From Desulfuromusa sp. (lineage in GTDB: Bacteria > Desulfobacterota > Desulfuromonadia > Desulfuromonadales > Geopsychrobacteraceae): DNA of 49,961 nt. Of the stretch, positions 25,026-49,961 are shown in pieces; the first letter of the stretch is position 1; every line of letters starts with the position of its first letter. The DNA lies in NCBI GenBank assembly GCA_027858895.1, contig JAQIBX010000047.1:1-49961 (forward strand), given 5' to 3'. The translations under genes and the position numbers were made by a program. The notes beneath the pieces are model-generated. The model worked only from the letters and a program-made list of their open reading frames with translations, searched no databases and was not told where the DNA came from.

Positions 25026-25178
25026 TTATCAATCGTATCTCAGGCACCGTCCCCATCTGTCCCCGGGTCGCTTTGTCATCAGGGCAGGAATTGGCACCGA
25101 CCTTCTCCTTTTTACTGCAAGGAATGCCGGTTGCCGTGGCTTCAAAGGGCCTTCTCCCTCCACCACTCTGGATAAAGA
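25026..25178 (-). promoter_or_regulatory. SAM-I (S-box) riboswitch aptamer
   Basis: The minus strand carries the S-box core in order: TTATCCAGAGTGGTGGAGGG, GAAGCCACGGCAACCGGC, then GGTGCCAATTCC and, after a P4-type stem, GATTGATAA, which closes P1. These are the conserved SAM-binding and kink-turn segments. A GAGATAC / GTATCCTC pair between aptamer and terminator could be the antiterminator. It controls metX by premature termination when S-adenosylmethionine binds. Confidence 0.92.
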
Positions 25179-40542: not shown

Positions 40543-41046
40543 CTAAGTCATTCCGAACAGCGCCCCGAGCTCGTCCTGATCGAGAAGATTGTATCGCTGC
40601 CTTACCTGCATCAGTTCAGTATAACCACTCTCCGGCCAGTCAGCAGGATCTTCAACAATTCCCGCCCGAACCATATTCAAATCGATATAGGTTAGACATC
40701 GGGCAAGATGGTGGTCGGTATCCACGGCGGTTGCATGATAGCGGTCTTCCCAGAAGGCGCCCTTGCGAGTTTTTCTCTGATTGAACTCTTGTGCGACTCT
40801 GCCGGCCACCAGTTGCATACTTTTAGGGATTTCGCCCCGACCGGTATCTTTCACCAACAGATGGATGTGGTTGGAGGTCACCATGTAGTTCAGAATACAA
40901 AGCCCATAGCGTTTCCTGGCTTCAAATAGCCAACGGACCCACGCTCTGCGGTCAAGCGCAAACTTGAGAAGAAAGTTTTGTTTGTGACATCTGTGGGTAA
41001 TGTGCCAGACATGGCCTGGCAGAAAATAACGATTGGCACGTGGCAT
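40543..41046 (-). CDS. REP-associated tyrosine transposase (RAYT), C-terminally short
   Basis: A 167-residue Y1/HUH transposase: the metal-binding NHIHLLV motif, GRVAQEFNQRKTRKGAFWEDRYHATAV, then CLTYIDLNMVRAGIV with the nucleophile Tyr region. The start at 41046 (MPRANRYFLPGHVWHITHRC) has GGAGGGGG upstream. Related proteins usually run on well past the ELGALFGM region where this one stops, so it is probably truncated by the junction with the half attC. Such enzymes act on REP palindromes; a REP-like repeat lies just upstream. Confidence 0.85.
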   Translation of the reverse strand: MPRANRYFLPGHVWHITHRCHKQNFLLKFALDRRAWVRWLFEARKRYGLCILNYMVTSNHIHLLVKDTGRGEIPKSMQLVAGRVAQEFNQRKTRKGAFWEDRYHATAVDTDHHLARCLTYIDLNMVRAGIVEDPADWPESGYTELMQVRQRYNLLDQDELGALFGMT

Positions 41047-41109
41047 TTTGTCCCCCTCCATTTCACGGCAAAAATGACAATTCTAAGCTAGATATTTGGT
41101 TTTATTTTG

Positions 41110-43456: not shown

Positions 43457-44113
43457 CTAAAATTCCGCCAATTCCATTATTTTTGTCCGGAGATAGCCAA
43501 AGCTAGGGGATGCATTATTATTCACATCCATATGTGGTGTGATTTTCTCAGCCCATATAGACTTCTCGGCCCCGATGGCTTGCCAACCTTTGATTGAAAG
43601 TGCCGCCGATCCACCTGGGAAAATGGCATCGGCAAGTTTCTCCCATGTGCCACAAATGGAATCATTAGCATATGTGTTCAGAACAGCATCTTTTGCTTTT
43701 GGATATGCTATCTTCATCGCGGGAATGTCGCCGAGAAACCATGCTTCACCTTCCTCTATGGCAACACAAAAACGTGTTTCGGGCTTTGGATCACATGCGT
43801 TGAGAATCGCATATAATTCTTCGCGGAAGGCTTTCAGACACTTAGCGTCCAAGTCGCAAATCAAGATCACCGCAGCAGGACAATTTTCCGGGTAATTGGC
43901 AAATGTATTTCCGTAGCCCCTCAGCAATTTAGGGAGTTGAGTTAATAAGATGCGTTTGCTTGTATCGGCATTGGCACCAAGATTTTTTGGGATCCGGCCA
44001 ATTCCTTTATACGCATGAACTTTGAATGTATGCTCAAGGCCGATGAGCTTGGGGAGCAGAATATCGAGAGCCTTTTTCCCGGACTGGTCTTCAACGAGTA
44101 TTTCAAAATGCAT
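43457..44113 (-). CDS. DUF4276-type, TOPRIM-like protein (second gene of ATPase pair)
   Basis: A 218-residue protein. MHFEILVEDQSGKKAL at the start, ILICDLDAKC (DxD) in the middle and CVAIEEGEAWFLGD later are the three acidic clusters expected of DUF4276/TOPRIM-like folds, so metal-dependent nuclease activity is plausible. The start at 44113 is chosen because GAGG lies upstream and the gene then begins four bases after the ATPase stop. It has no signal peptide. It pairs with the upstream AAA ATPase in one cassette; by analogy to PARIS (AriA/AriB) or OLD-type modules it may be an effector held in check by the ATPase. The function is inferred. Confidence 0.75.
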   Translation of the reverse strand: MHFEILVEDQSGKKALDILLPKLIGLEHTFKVHAYKGIGRIPKNLGANADTSKRILLTQLPKLLRGYGNTFANYPENCPAAVILICDLDAKCLKAFREELYAILNACDPKPETRFCVAIEEGEAWFLGDIPAMKIAYPKAKDAVLNTYANDSICGTWEKLADAIFPGGSAALSIKGWQAIGAEKSIWAEKITPHMDVNNNASPSFGYLRTKIMELAEF

Positions 44114-44117
44114 CTGA

Positions 44118-45410
44118 TTACCTCGCATCCAAATAATCGCTGTACCAGAGCCCGCCCAAAGGCAATCCCTCCGCAACCAGGTTCTTCACTATTTCGTCTT
44201 CGCTTGCCCTCCGGATAATTGAAAAACCATCCGAACCCTTTTCCAGAATCCAGACCTCGGAAGGTTCCAAGGCATCAACCAAATACGGTTGATGGGTAGT
44301 GATGAAAACCTGAGATCCGCCTTTGCGGCCTGTCGCGTGTTCACGAAATTCCTTCGCTAAGGATTCCAGAAGTTTGTGGTACAAGCCATTTTCCGGTTCT
44401 TCTATGCATAAAAACGGCGGTGGTGTCGGATCTTCAAGCAAAAGTAGATAGGCGAATACCTTTAGTGTCCCGTCAGACATCTGTTGGGAATAAAATGGGT
44501 CCTGAAAGCCTTTGTCATTGAACCGAAGAAGCAACCGGCCATCGTTAGTCGGTTCCGTATCAATCTTGTTGATACCGGGAATTTTTTCAGTAATCTGGTT
44601 GAGAATCGTTTGGAAACGCTTTGGGTGCTCCCGCTCCATGAACTGCACAACATTACCAAGATTATCGCCATGGATGTTGAGATGCTTTTGGGGCCCGACG
44701 AGCGGCAGACTGCGAGCTGCATCCGGAGTGAAGTAACTGAGGTACCAACCTTCGATGAACCTGCGAAACGCTGAAATTCTCGGATGTTGTTTCAACGACC
44801 CCAGAGTTGCGATTCCGAGCTTGCGTATATCCTCAAGTTCGACCACCTCGGTTTCCTTGGACTCTTCTTTTGCTTCACCTGACAGAAAGGATCTCATCAG
44901 ACCAAACAGGTCAAAGTCCCCCTGATTTTCATCGATTTGCAGACCTTCCTGATCCCCCTTCCAAACAACCCCCTTTCCACTATTCAACACAAGAAATGAA
45001 AAAGGCCACCCACGTTTTTGGCCTTTGCGCCTTTGCCTTAGACGCTCTTTCAACACATATGGACGGCTAGAACTATCTATATCAATTGCAATCTCATAAG
45101 TAATGGGCCGAGCATTTCCATCTTCCTTGTAATACACCTCGAATTCGATTGGTTCTTGTTGACCTTGTGCCCTAATTCTATTAAAGCCACCTCGACCGCG
45201 AGAGTCGCACGCCTCTTCAACTCCTGATTTCAAAGCATCCGCCAAGAAGCCGAATGCATCAAATAATGTGCTCTTCCCAACACCATTTTTGCCAATAACC
45301 GCAGTCATGGGCGTGAGAGGCTCGGCCTGTTGCTGATTCCACAGCCGGCCAAGAGTAACGTCCTTCAATGACCTAAAGTTTTTGATTCTGAATCCTTCTA
45401 TCTTTGCCAT
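44118..45410 (-). CDS. SMC-like AAA ATPase (AAA_21 / COG4637 type)
   Basis: A 430-residue ATPase: FRIKNFRSLKDVTL start, Walker A VIGKNGVGKST, a middle section of ~200 residues without a long coiled coil, ABC-type signature SQQMSDGTL, Walker B FLCIEEPENGLY and the H-loop ITTHQPYLVD. These mark the OLD/RecF-like ATPase group. ATG 45410 has GAGGAG five bases away; the longer frame to 45539 is unlikely. The gene is the first of a two-gene cassette with the DUF4276 protein. Candidate anti-phage sensor or switch. Confidence 0.88.
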   Translation of the reverse strand: MAKIEGFRIKNFRSLKDVTLGRLWNQQQAEPLTPMTAVIGKNGVGKSTLFDAFGFLADALKSGVEEACDSRGRGGFNRIRAQGQQEPIEFEVYYKEDGNARPITYEIAIDIDSSSRPYVLKERLRQRRKGQKRGWPFSFLVLNSGKGVVWKGDQEGLQIDENQGDFDLFGLMRSFLSGEAKEESKETEVVELEDIRKLGIATLGSLKQHPRISAFRRFIEGWYLSYFTPDAARSLPLVGPQKHLNIHGDNLGNVVQFMEREHPKRFQTILNQITEKIPGINKIDTEPTNDGRLLLRFNDKGFQDPFYSQQMSDGTLKVFAYLLLLEDPTPPPFLCIEEPENGLYHKLLESLAKEFREHATGRKGGSQVFITTHQPYLVDALEPSEVWILEKGSDGFSIIRRASEDEIVKNLVAEGLPLGGLWYSDYLDAR

Positions 45411-45507
45411 AATTCTCCTCACATTCTTGCAGTCGGTCGGTCGTAACACATTAACAGTTATAACTCTTCTTCGAGATCCAGCGGGGTTGGTTCTCGCATT
45501 GTAACAT

Positions 45508-45600
45508 CTAATGAATTTTAATAAAGATTGGCGATGCAATAATAATAAAAATGCCTATTAATATTGCGAATTTGTATTTGTCTGGTACCAATAGAAACAT
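45508..45600 (-). CDS. Possible 30-residue hydrophobic peptide in the ATPase leader
   Basis: A 30-codon frame encoding a peptide with one membrane-like segment (FAILIGIFIIIASPIFI). GGAA lies nine bases upstream. It sits in the 385-base leader of the ATPase cassette, upstream of the ATPase gene. A second weak frame of 37 codons (45626-45739, MPIVTPFLDRR...) has AGGAAACAGGA upstream. Either may be chance; the rest of the leader holds no recognised motif. Confidence 0.25.
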   Translation of the reverse strand: MFLLVPDKYKFAILIGIFIIIASPIFIKIH

Positions 45601-45794
45601 GATTATTCCAATGTGTTTTCGTGAGTTAATTCAGGGTACAACGAGTCTGTAGGAAAACCCAGTGCTCTGAATTTCGAAAAAATTGGCTTTCAAATTTGCC
45701 CTCTGCGCGACGATCTAGGAACGGGGTGACAATTGGCATTCCTGTTTCCTCATAAAAACTGATATTTACTGCATGTGTTGAGGTTTTTCTACAG

Positions 45795-45898
45795 TCTCAA
45801 CGGTTGAGATAAGCGGCGGCTACGCGAACTTCGAGTCCCACAGAACTTTTCGAAAACCACGCCTGCATATTCCGTCCGCTTGATCTACGTGGTTATGT
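45795..45898 (-). other. attC site downstream of the membrane winged-helix gene
   Basis: 104 bases, directly after the stop codon. Minus strand: ACATAAC opens, GTTGAGA closes. Arms AACCACGTAGATCAAGCGGACGG and CCGCCGCTTATCTCAACCGTT pair well with extrahelical bases. The partly cut site at 49671 has the same arm design. Confidence 0.85.
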
Positions 45899-46408
45899 CT
45901 ATTTTACGTCTGAAAACACTCTTCTTCCTTTGGCGCTGAGCGTGTAAAGTTTTCCGTGTTCTCCTTGTGAAGTTGTCGCTAAACCATGATCCATCAGCCA
46001 ACTTATCATTCGTTTTACATCAGCTTCAGGTTGTTGTGATTCTTTCAAAAGACCACCAAAATATCTCCATGTGTATTTGGAATTATTTAATGCTTTTATT
46101 ACTTTTTGGTCATTTTCATTTGTGCCGTATGCTTCAACTTTGGCCCGACCGTCACTCTCATGTTGGGTCGGCTCCGTTTCCTTTTCAATAATAGCCTCTA
46201 TCTTTTCCCGCATCTCGGCTTCGAAACCAGCACCTTTAAATTTCTTTATTTTGTCAATATTCAGGAATGCAAGGCTTATCGCCCCTGCAAGTATTGATAA
46301 CCCCATCTCCGCTGACTTGCCGAGAAGACCTAAGAAAAAACTACAGCCAAGGAGGACTATAAAGGAAGCAATCTGAAGGTTGTCTTTTGACATGATTTTT
46401 TCTTTCAT
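45899..46408 (-). CDS. Membrane-anchored winged-helix protein (cassette gene)
   Basis: A 169-residue protein. Two hydrophobic segments lie near the N-terminus (IASFIVLLGCSFFLGLLG; MGLSILAGAISLAFLNI). A charged helix follows, and the last ~70 residues look like a winged helix (VIKALNNSKYTWRYFGGLLKE; GLATTSQGEHGKLYTLSAKG). I do not recognise the family. AGGAATAAA precedes the ATG, which lies 12 bases from an attC end; the stop abuts the next attC, so this is a textbook cassette. The DNA-binding-like fold tethered to the membrane suggests sensing or regulation at the membrane (inference). Confidence 0.7.
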   Translation of the reverse strand: MKEKIMSKDNLQIASFIVLLGCSFFLGLLGKSAEMGLSILAGAISLAFLNIDKIKKFKGAGFEAEMREKIEAIIEKETEPTQHESDGRAKVEAYGTNENDQKVIKALNNSKYTWRYFGGLLKESQQPEADVKRMISWLMDHGLATTSQGEHGKLYTLSAKGRRVFSDVK

Positions 46409-46420
46409 TTTATTCCTAAG

Positions 46421-46440
46421 GCATAACGTTTCGTTTCAGG
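46421..46440 (-). other. attC, fragment split by the group IIC intron (right end)
   Basis: GCATAAC (minus-strand GTTATGC) and the following TTTCAG are one half of an attC whose other half lies past the intron at 48417-48448, ending ATTTAAC on the minus strand. Rejoined they give a hairpin TCAG-GCTA-CTGA at the centre. Confidence 0.5.
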
Positions 46441-48416
46441 GGCGACTTGACCGCGGGAACCGCGGGAAAGTGGTCCCCTGCAAACGTTTGTGTACGCCCA
46501 GCATGGGCATGAACTCATGGGGTGCAAGTCCCCTGTTGGAAGATCACCGCCAGAAAACCATGTTGTGAGTATGGTGTTAACAACTAGCAAATGGCAAGGG
46601 CATTTTCGTGAGGAGATGTCTGAAGGAAGCCTGATGCAAAACTGCGGACTGATGAACAAGAACATCATAGTAGGCGTAGGCTGGAGGCGAGTTGGCACAA
46701 GACAACGAAGCCATGTGATCTAACGGCCGCCGTAAATGATGCAGTGGTGCAGGGAAAGTTCATGCTCTTATCTGGGGAGATCTGTTTAACTTGCTCTCGG
46801 TCAATTACCAGTAAGGCACTGGTATAGAAATGCCTTGGCTACCCGGCAGCCATCAACCGGGATAGAGCGAACATGATGGAAACCGATAGCGCTCTGTCAG
46901 GTAACTGCCGGGGTGATTAAGCAGAAGTCAGCAGAGACCATAGTAGCCAAACGCCTGTCGTAATGGACAGGACAAGGTGAAGGGTCGAACAGCAACCACA
47001 AGGAGGAGGAACATTGAACTTGAAGCTATCCCATTCCCCGACCGGGGAAGATATGCAGCAGCGTGACAATGGAAACCCAGCCTTGAATGACCACCTGCTC
47101 CAGCAGGTACTTGAGAGTACTAATATTCAGGCTGCTTGGAAGCAAGTCCGCCGGAATAAAGGTGCTGCGGGTATTGATGGTATCACAATCTTGCAATTTC
47201 CCGAATGGATACGCCCGCAGTGGCAGACCCTTGAGGGAAAACTGCGCAGTGACCACTATCGTCCGCAACCTGTCAAACGAGTCCGCATTCCCAAAGATGA
47301 TGGGTCGGAACGTTTGCTGGGAATCCCCACTGTATTAGACCGAGTCCTACAACAATCCATTGTGCAGGTATTATCCCCCCTGCTTGACCCAACGTTCTCT
47401 GAGCATAGTCATGGCTTTCGGCCAAACCGCTCAGCACACGATGCGGTTAAACAGATTAGCCAATACTGCCAGCAGCAACGTAAGATAGCGGTCGATATTG
47501 ATCTGTCAAAATTCTTTGATCGGGTCAATCACGATCTCTTGATGACGCTACTGGGACGCAGGATTGCGGACAAAGGGTTGTTGCAACTGATCGGTCGCTT
47601 TCTGCGCTGCGGTATCATGGATGATGACACCCTGATACCCAGCAGAGCAGGAGTCCCGCAAGGAGGCCCCCTGTCGCCTCTCTCTTATCCAATATTATGC
47701 TCGATGTCCTGGATAAAGAACTGGAAAAACGGGGTCACCGTTTTGCCCGCTATGCCGATGACCTGATCATTATGGTCAAAAGCCAGAGAGCAGGAGAGCG
47801 GGTGATGCAAAGCCTCACCCGATTTATCGAAAGAGACCTGAAACTCAAGGTCAACACTGAGAAAAGTCAGGTGGTACCAAGCTCTCAGTGTAAATTTCTC
47901 GGCTTTCGTTTCAGAGGAAAACAAATCCTCTGGCACCTCAAGAGCATGGACAAGTTCAAGCACCATGTACGAGAACTGACTAACCGCACTTGGGGCGTCT
48001 CCATGAGAACAAAGCTCAGAAAACTCAGCATCTATCTGCGTGGCTGGATCAACTATTACGGCATTGCCAATCAATACCAGCAGTGCATTGATTTGGATCA
48101 CTGGATACGTCGCCGAGTCAGGATGTGTTACTGGAAACAGTGGCGAAAGCCCCGCACCAAAGTACGCAAACTGTTACAACTGGGTGTGCCGCTACGAGCT
48201 GCTATCAGCTGTGGCATAACGAGTAAAAGCTACTGGCGCAGTTCAAAAACGGCAGGTATCAATATGGGGTTGGGGAACAAGTATCTGCAACAACAAGGGC
48301 TGTTTGCCCTACGAGACGGCTGGATTACATTTCATCATGGTTGATGAACCGCCCTGTGCGGGGCCGCATGCAGGGTGGTGTGGGGGCTGGGGGAGAAAAA
48401 CCCCCGGCTACCCGAT
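46440..48416 (+). mobile_element. Group IIC intron inserted in an attC
   Basis: About 1.98 kb. The 5' end GGGCGACTTG is followed by GC-rich stems of domain I. A reverse transcriptase lies in domain IV. Domain V is at about 48350-48382 (GAACCGCCCTGTGCGG ... CCGCATGCAGGGTGG), then domain VI with the GGGGG / CCCCC stem and the end CCCGAT. The RT is opposite in orientation to the cassette genes and the flanks reassemble into an attC, both typical of the group IIC-attC class. Boundaries may be off by one to three bases. Confidence 0.85.
47014..48344 (+). pseudogene. Intron reverse transcriptase/maturase, frameshifted
   Basis: Two frames together make one group II intron RT. The first (TTG 47014 after AGGAGGAGGA, to 47766) covers RT0-RT4: WKQVRRNKGAAGIDGIT, SHGFRPNRSAHDA, AVDIDLSKFFDRVNH, VPQGGPLSPL. 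The second (in frame through ~48344) begins LLSNIMLDVLDKELEKRG and holds the catalytic YADD, CKFLGFRF and the maturase region WINYYGIAN. The frames differ by two bases: CCTCTCTCTTA at 47677-47687 carries one CT more than the family's PLLSNIM needs. No endonuclease domain, as in group IIC. As read, no intact RT is made. Confidence 0.85.
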
Positions 48417-48445
48417 TAGCCTGATTTTTGAATATGTAGTTAAAT

Positions 48446-49141
48446 TTACTCTGGAAAATCATTTCGTGCATCAAGGTATTTTTCAAGATTGATCGCCATG
48501 TCGTAGTCTGCTGTTTTCCATGTTTCATAAAGTGGATCCCAGTAAAAGGCGGCAGTAATATTTTCTTTTTGCCTTTCCTCGCCAAGACCGAGAGCGGGGA
48601 CAAAAAACCAAACTTTAGCAAATGCAAACAGCTCAGGCTTTTGCGCATCATTTTGATTCTGAAGTGAGTCCTTTAGCCACAACCAGTGCTTTTCGTCAAC
48701 TTGCAGCAATGTGTTACGAGCTCTGTTCCGAGATATATTGAAGTTTTCAGGTAACCACCTGAGAACTTGGCCTTTTGTGTTTTCGGGCCGATAGATAATA
48801 TAGAGGGCTCGTCGAATGTCTTCTGCTGTCCCGCCGTTGTTTTTGATGCCCCATTTGGTACTTACTTTTTCTGGGGAAATCTCAAAAATTTCAGGAAACA
48901 ATATTTCTATCTCTGGAAGGTTTGCTTGCCGAAACTGCTGATAAAGTTGCTGCCTTTGTTCCGCGACTTCCACCCATGATTGGTATGCAATTATGGCCAA
49001 GACAATTGTGACACACGCTGATACAAGGGCAGATAGCGCTGTGATTTCAGTGTGGTACTTTCTGATCCAGTTATGTTTTTGATGGCAAGTTTTTTGATCC
49101 TCTTCGCTTGTTTTCATATTGGCTGGATCATTGGTTGCCAT
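48446..49141 (-). CDS. One-helix membrane protein (cassette gene)
   Basis: A 231-residue protein with a ~30-residue polar N-terminus, one membrane helix (ITALSALVSACVTIVLAIIAY), a short charged helix (EVAEQRQQLYQQFRQA) and a ~150-residue beta-rich C-terminal domain (FEISPEKVSTKWGIKNNGG...). I do not recognise the family; the layout resembles many small membrane proteins of phage-defence islands and cassettes. GAGGAAAAATC precedes the ATG, 28 bases from an attC end. Its own attC is split by the intron. Confidence 0.7.
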   Translation of the reverse strand: MATNDPANMKTSEEDQKTCHQKHNWIRKYHTEITALSALVSACVTIVLAIIAYQSWVEVAEQRQQLYQQFRQANLPEIEILFPEIFEISPEKVSTKWGIKNNGGTAEDIRRALYIIYRPENTKGQVLRWLPENFNISRNRARNTLLQVDEKHWLWLKDSLQNQNDAQKPELFAFAKVWFFVPALGLGEERQKENITAAFYWDPLYETWKTADYDMAINLEKYLDARNDFPE

Positions 49142-49169: not shown

Positions 49170-49229
49170 GGCTAACGGGCCGGGCTGTTGAGCCGAGAAT
49201 CGCAGTCAGCTCGAACGCCATTGTTATGA
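49170..49229 (-). other. attC site downstream of the 145-residue hypothetical gene
   Basis: 60 bases; minus strand TCATAAC opens and GTTAGCC closes, both matching the RYYYAAC / GTTRRRY rule closely. Arms GTTCGAGC and GCTCAAC pair with one extrahelical base. The gene's TAA lies inside the opening TCATAAC. Confidence 0.88.
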
Positions 49230-49658
49230 ATTTTCTGCTTCTTGATAAATCGATATTCCGACCGCTTTGTACCTAGCAAACGGGTTTTCTCCGTTCCAAT
49301 CTTCTGGCATTTCAATATTCAGTTTCGCATCTTTTAATTTTTGGTCTTCTTCATAAGTTATCTTTGTTACCACATGAAGTTGATTCAAAATATTTGAGAC
49401 TGATTTAGAATTGACATCCTTAAGCCCCATTAATTTGTCACGGAGAATTCTAAAAGGTACTGTATGCTCATGGATAACCTTTTGATCTGGGTTCTTTTTT
49501 ACAGAGTCCGATACAAATGTTGAATCCTTTTCCAGTTCATTAAGGGCATAGCGAAAATATGTAGACCAAACTCTGTTAGGTGTTCCCATTTGCTTGTGTT
49601 CCTGACAATCTTTGATGACCTTAATCATCATATTGATATGTTTATCTGTGTATTTCAT
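49224..49658 (-). CDS. Hypothetical cassette protein (HEHTVP motif)
   Basis: A ~144-residue soluble protein starting MKYTDKHINMMIKVIKDCQE. The stretch KVIHEHTVPFRILRDKLMGL is the most distinctive, but I cannot assign a family or activity. The ATG at 49658 is preferred to the upstream frame start since it lies just 13 bases inside the cassette; a GGATTACC precedes it weakly. Its stop overlaps attC, as often in cassettes. Confidence 0.7.
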   Translation of the reverse strand: MKYTDKHINMMIKVIKDCQEHKQMGTPNRVWSTYFRYALNELEKDSTFVSDSVKKNPDQKVIHEHTVPFRILRDKLMGLKDVNSKSVSNILNQLHVVTKITYEEDQKLKDAKLNIEMPEDWNGENPFARYKAVGISIYQEAENS

Positions 49659-49670
49659 GTTTTTGGTAAT

Positions 49671-49779
49671 CCATAACGGTTCATGATAACCGGCGGCGAT
49701 GCGAACTTGCGTGACCCACCGCAATCTGGTTTTGCTTTTTGACCAAAAGCAGAAGCGGCTTCCGTCCGGCTGATCTACT
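49671..49779 (-). other. attC site, 5' end lost to the IS at the right edge
   Basis: On the minus strand GTAGATCAGCCGGACGG and CCGCCGGTTATCATGAACCGTTATGG are the complementary arms, the same design as the 45795-45898 site. The expected opening AAC is replaced by AGGGTAATA, so the site is cut within a few bases of its left end by the adjoining element. Confidence 0.75.
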
Positions 49780-49961
49780 ATTACCCTAATCTTTCAAAAA
49801 AAGAGGGCTCCTCCCTGTCATAATCACCGTAGTTCGGACGGCGCGCCTACGAGCGTGACCTTTGCAGATCCGCCAATTGTTTGCATGATCAGAGAGGAGC
49901 CCAAATGAATATTACCACTCAAAACAAGATTAATCATCCCGCAATTCTGGCTTTTGACGTC
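49780..49961 (+). mobile_element. IS110/IS1111-type element, left end (continues past window)
   Basis: A 127-base noncoding left end followed by a transposase start. GGGCTCCTCCCTG (49805-49817) and CAGAGAGGAGCCC (49890-49902) are inverted copies with one mismatch; the second doubles as the GAGGAG ribosome site. The element abuts a cut attC, as known for the IS1111-attC group. The window ends 55 bases into the gene. Confidence 0.65.
49907..49961 (+). CDS. IS110-family transposase, first 18 codons
   Basis: Not long enough for full identification. MNITTQNKINHPAILAFDV ends on the FDV stretch that in IS110-family DEDD transposases carries the first catalytic Asp (followed by SK in the family). 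GAGGAGCCCAA precedes the ATG. Confidence 0.6.

Follow-up and report, generated by a model that had tools for sequence, protein, structure and literature searches.

A full-length group IIC-attC intron with an interrupted reverse transcriptase gene in a split cassette attC of Desulfuromusa sp.

The cassettes near the end of the window, by which we mean the whole stretch of DNA analysed (49,961 nt of contig JAQIBX010000047.1, Desulfuromusa sp. assembly GCA_027858895.1), are interrupted by a group II intron. Here we report that this intron separates the two parts of an attC, and that its reverse transcriptase (RT) gene is divided over two open reading frames (Table 1). The attC sites beside the cassettes and an IntI integron integrase encoded on another contig, C122 (452 bits, above the cut-off), identify an integron cassette array, the link between integrase and array being putative. 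The integrase ORF (L032:244-1641) encodes 465 aa, of which about 150 residues precede the Pfam phage integrase SAM-like match.

Elsewhere in the window we found a SAM riboswitch (25050-25178, - strand, 71.4 bits) and, at 40543-41061, a protein resembling REP-associated tyrosine transposases, whose 74.2 bits fall slightly below the NCBI cut-off of 80. A two-gene pair on the - strand (43457-45539) matched the PADLOC models HEC-01A (658 bits) and HEC-01B (318 bits), and may be a defence system, close to the cassettes.

Table 1. Intron, attC and cassette features, in window coordinates
Feature	Position	Strand	Support or remark
ORF of the adjacent downstream cassette, 169 aa	45899-46408	-	no family match
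Larger attC part (R' side, central stem, hairpin on intron strand)	46421-46491		joined-flank folding; ends with IBS1 TTGT (46488-46491)
Full-length group IIC-attC intron	46492-48416	+	1925 nt; end patterns as in 61 full-length relatives, and Rfam
Domain I region, Rfam D1-D4-3	46602-46766	+	RF02001, 134 bits, model 1-170 of 170
EBS1, ACAA	46697-46700	+	would pair with IBS1 TTGT; same loop in relatives
D1-D4-1 module (Rfam name), 5' of RT ORF	46890-46985	+	RF01998, 62.6 bits, model 1-84 of 84
First RT ORF (TTG start)	47014-47766	+	RT frame through GVPQGGPLSPL; out of frame past the CT run
(CT)4 run	47678-47685	+	site of frame change
Second RT ORF, YADD and maturase domain	47697-48344	+	RVT_1 3.3e-12, GIIM 1.5e-18
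Domains V and VI, CGC triad, 3' end ACCCGAT	48347-48416	+	RF00029, 43.6 bits, complete model
attC remainder (R'' side), 3' exon starting TA	48417-48427		end comparison and folding
ORF of the cassette with the split attC, 231 aa	48446-49141	-	no family match
Neighbouring ORF	49224-49724	-	

The presence of a group II intron, put forward in the original prediction, is borne out by the matches to two D1-D4 modules, obtained in a whole-window Rfam search at gathering thresholds, and to domains V and VI. The latter match (RF00029, gathering score 40) came from a narrower search, being absent from the whole-window one, and covers the region around 48350-48382 where domain V had been expected. The intron had been placed at 46421-48448 and does lie within that interval, the rest of which is an attC half and some 3' flank; from a comparison of its ends with those of full-length relatives, we set its limits at TTGT|TA. 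When the alignment was read by eye, the domain V triad proved to be CGC, aligned with AGC in the RF00029 consensus, and CGC is the triad that marks group IIC-attC introns, AGC being found in other groups (PMC7923331). The 3' end fits the consensus AXX(X)XRAY. The 5' end, GTACG, differs from the published GUGYG and fits it only loosely; the relatives share GTACG, in a search whose pattern favoured it. The ribozyme parts appear complete from their sequence, and, apart from the 5'-end consensus, the features agree with the definition of group IIC-attC introns in PMC7923331, in keeping with the class first proposed. Two further Rfam matches in the RT region, mir-1000 and sR44, were dismissed as falling below their own gathering scores.

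For comparison we assembled 87 relatives: the best 80 of 472 confirmed in a species-genome scan with an alignment of RT C-terminal halves, and seven plasmid loci. Since relatives were sought by C-terminal-half peptides, copies lacking that half escape the sample. By their end patterns 61 are full-length (54 genome and seven plasmid loci), and the other 26, in which the pair of ends was not recovered at the set spacing, were left out of these counts. By tree label, the best 80 of 472 comprise 79 Pseudomonadota and one MAG titled Planctomycetota. A distant search of plasmid DNA matched 430 records, of which 85 span 80% or more of the query. In the 30 matches listed, the aligned part makes up 80-96% of the query and is 67-70% identical at the DNA level, and in 14 of the 430 records the best place reaches 80-95% identity. 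Matches were also found in 21 of 5426 E. coli genomes, and among viral contigs there were three relatives, at 43-46%, as well as a contig carrying the 5' end of the intron. The seven plasmid records all carry an annotated group II intron RT, some beside dfrA14, catB3, aadA or qacE cassettes. In one of them, from Klebsiella (L024:1400-3430), the intron has on one side serA, with a hairpin behind it that by eye is terminator-like, and on the other the end of an aadA11 cassette, a mixed arrangement resembling that of the cassette-formation model in PMC7923331.

In an RT tree rooted by us, whose root fork has 5% support, the long-branched window row falls among the 87 relatives beside L094, and a long branch (98%) sets off three RTs of other introns from the host family. 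A search of 136 genomes of the host's order found a close RT only in the window's own, two others matching at 51%.

Target recognition can be followed across this sample. The 5' exon of the 61 full-length relatives ends in TTGT in 57, TGGT in two, TTAT in one and TTTG in one, and the 3' exon starts with T in 58; in the three exceptions (L041, L043, L052), which are retained in the counts, the pattern probably miscalled the 3' end. Among 69 placed loci, the window included, 56 have the TTGT/ACAA pairing, and four show covariation between EBS1 and IBS1 (TGGT/ACCA in L050 and L098, TTTG/CAAA in two, one being L111), which serves as a check on target recognition. The remaining nine do not display the pairing, mostly because the search anchor landed elsewhere, and in two further loci no loop was found. 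The window's predicted 4-bp EBS1-IBS1 pairing lies within the 3-4 bp expected, and the intron's insertion point TTGT|TA fits TTGT/T (IBS1/IBS3) in the attC bottom strand.

The flanks of the intron had been predicted to rejoin into one attC, and when 46421-46491 and 48417-48427 are joined they indeed form a single hairpin, with a DNA folding energy of -21.9 compared with -11.2 (sd 2.3) in shuffled sequences; none of 500 shuffles was as stable, nor was any of 785 junctions taken from elsewhere in the window. The antiparallel position of the intron is likewise confirmed, as it lies on the + strand with - strand ORFs on either side. Class C-attC introns occur in Shewanella integrons, and because one of these has cassette orientation, opposite orientation is a strong and not an absolute rule (PMC9229058). 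Two neighbouring attC-like sites, 45808-45885 and 49685-49775, have boxes in common that also recur in a site on contig C159, and the stretch 49670-49800 has partial matches (82-90%) on contigs C7, C159 and C65. Folding energy did not distinguish the three neighbouring candidate sites or the site in another Desulfuromusa genome, G006, which were reached by 166, 120, 17 and 203 of 300 shuffles, and a one-box pattern was about as frequent as its reversed control (3+5 vs 3+4 places).

At the contig end, 49793-49961, a + strand ORF starts near an attC-like site. It may encode a transposase of the IS110 family, some members of which target attC; an IS1111 report is cited in PMC9229058.

The RT was predicted to be broken by a surplus CT in the (CT)4 run that follows PLSPL and precedes the YADD half, and this description holds: the run is there, the frames switch there (between intron frames 1 and 3), RVT_1 is divided over the two ORFs, and the interval from GVPQGG to YADD measures 101 nt compared with 99 nt in all 79 relatives with both motifs (87 were examined, and eight lacked one motif as searched). 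Residues encoded at 47014-47673 match RVT_1 (1.5e-20) and TIGR04416 (6.8e-73), and the second ORF is 61-70% identical to the 87 relatives. The Pfam search of the intron ORFs returned RVT_1 and GIIM, and no endonuclease domain. Ordinary translation gives no full-length RT, which bears on activity and not on lineage. Differences from the relatives at codon positions 1/2/3 amount to 0.381/0.242/0.645 in the first half and 0.295/0.208/0.585 in the second, and this third-position bias in both halves, with frames otherwise open, suggests that the break is young. In bacteria, truncated or inactivated intron copies are in the majority, according to the review PMC4424553. By a tblastn count, a stop or frame change breaks the RT in eight of the 61 full-length relatives, which also come from assemblies (an earlier count by open-frame length, superseded by this one, gave six clear cases). 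Judged from these sequences, RT breakage is not special among full-length relatives.

The frame break might be an assembly or sequencing error in an ordinary, intact and active group IIC-attC element. We consider this unlikely, since eight-base dinucleotide runs are not known as a usual site of such errors, and the long ORFs in the rest of the window, taken together, have no obvious breaks. The lesions counted in the relatives also speak against an error, with the reservation on assemblies already made. On the other side, the break is the sole lesion seen, with RT halves open and conserved on either side of it, and the contig belongs to a draft of 183 contigs. In addition, degenerate RTs are described as rare among non-truncated bacterial introns in PMC4424553; intact copies would then be the rule, which counts against decay. 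A different suggestion is that the break can be reversed, either through slippage in the CT run, as considered in the original prediction, or through a slip of the ribosome, so that some full-length RT is made. The data did not favour it. The run has just four units, and the window holds two dinucleotide runs of at least 8 nt, the CT run included, whereas 20 Markov sequences have 5.65 on average (sd 2.2), which makes such runs no more frequent than chance. Over the 30 nt examined, the CT units in the 79 relatives with both motifs number one (45 relatives), two (27), three (5) or none (2). Because none has four, we see no conserved slippery tract. By eye, an AAGGAGG at 47660-47666, 11 nt 5' of the CT run, and an in-phase heptamer G AAA AAC at 47724-47730, where the two ORFs overlap and from which a -1 slip would reach the YADD frame, could be taken as recoding signals. 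AAGGAGG is, however, accounted for by conserved QGG codons, the CT run itself has by eye no -1 slippery heptamer, and a slip at 47724-47730 would alter about 15 residues at positions largely invariant in seven aligned RTs. A literature search, hardly aimed at this question, returned no title on a slippage-controlled intron RT. We therefore regard a reversible break as very improbable, and a switch in the CT run or the ORF overlap that would make intron mobility phase-variable as scarcely credible.

It has also to be asked whether a dead intron is kept because it supplies an outward promoter to the downstream cassette at 45899-46408. According to the review PMC8876359, outward promoters are active in S.ma.I2 and in further group IIC-attC introns, and by analogy with S.ma.I2 the intron may contain one. 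Promoter-like sites in 45700-48700 are, however, as numerous as in shuffled sequences (four found vs 3.9, sd 1.7); in view of this lack of excess we reject an outward promoter as a demonstrated function, and we give retention for its sake very little credence.

The original prediction called for a look at other copies in the genome, and the assembly (183 contigs, 98.66% complete) contains the one full-length copy only; since it is in 183 contigs, a second could be missing. Nor did we find another RT of the same lineage in it, the remaining group II RT matches being a different intron (contig C65) and a fragment (C53). With neither a second copy nor a same-lineage RT found in the draft, the element is probably non-autonomous. 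Help in trans from the C65 intron was considered and rejected as improbable, since that intron matches another Rfam module, D1-D4-7. It is a group II intron of other type (L028:300-2610), with a domain V/VI match of 60 bits and an RT in one open frame, and it lies directly after an attC-like site and, by eye, in the orientation of the preceding ORF; UHB.I2 (PMC7923331) may be compared. Within the same genus, four of 13 other genomes (G006, G011, G012, G014) contain 5' stretches resembling the intron, in G006 a 24-nt stub after an attC-like site, and no RT match was found in the stretches taken from these four. From their sequence they look like remnants of the same intron lineage.

Based on these observations, we think it likely that a known attC-targeting intron inserted in the way usual for it, after which a small frame break deprived it of its RT; it looks like a new copy of a known element in ordinary decay. 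The intron would have recognised the attC hairpin together with the 4-bp EBS1-IBS1 pairing, reverse-spliced into the bottom strand of the folded attC at TTGT|TA, and been copied in by an RT of its lineage; anatomy and family are the grounds on which we deduce this insertion step. Either later or already in the parent, the RT gene would have changed in length by 2 nt, so that the catalytic YADD half came to lie in another frame. Because no full-length RT is readable and no same-lineage RT was found in the assembly, the intron is probably immobile and poorly spliced at present. With its attC split, the cassette encoding the 231-aa protein should be blocked from integrase-mediated excision at that site. 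A full-length, RT-disabled group IIC-attC intron and the 5' remnants in the same genus illustrate invasion and decay in integrons, and leave the known picture of these introns unchanged.

Among solved structures, those nearest to a profile of the RT C-terminal halves are the GsI-IIC RT (PDB 6ar1, E 1.3e-61) and the 7uim RT (E 2e-56), compared with which the window RT is interrupted; neither of these RT lineages is known to target attC. Together with the tree, these matches agree with an RT of the class C lineage. The group IIC-attC introns of class 1 integrons (L021-L027) share with the window copy the TTGT|T target, the 5' and 3' ends, an RT with YADD and X domain and, where annotated, adjacent cassette genes on the opposite strand, and differ from it in that the RT of the window copy is out of frame. 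These seven are of the S.ma.I2 lineage, a name that also appears in the review on promoters mentioned above. UHB.F1, from a soda-lake cassette array, is like the window intron in lying antiparallel in an environmental array and in being described with frameshifts, and differs in being 5' truncated, the window copy having both ends (PMC7923331).
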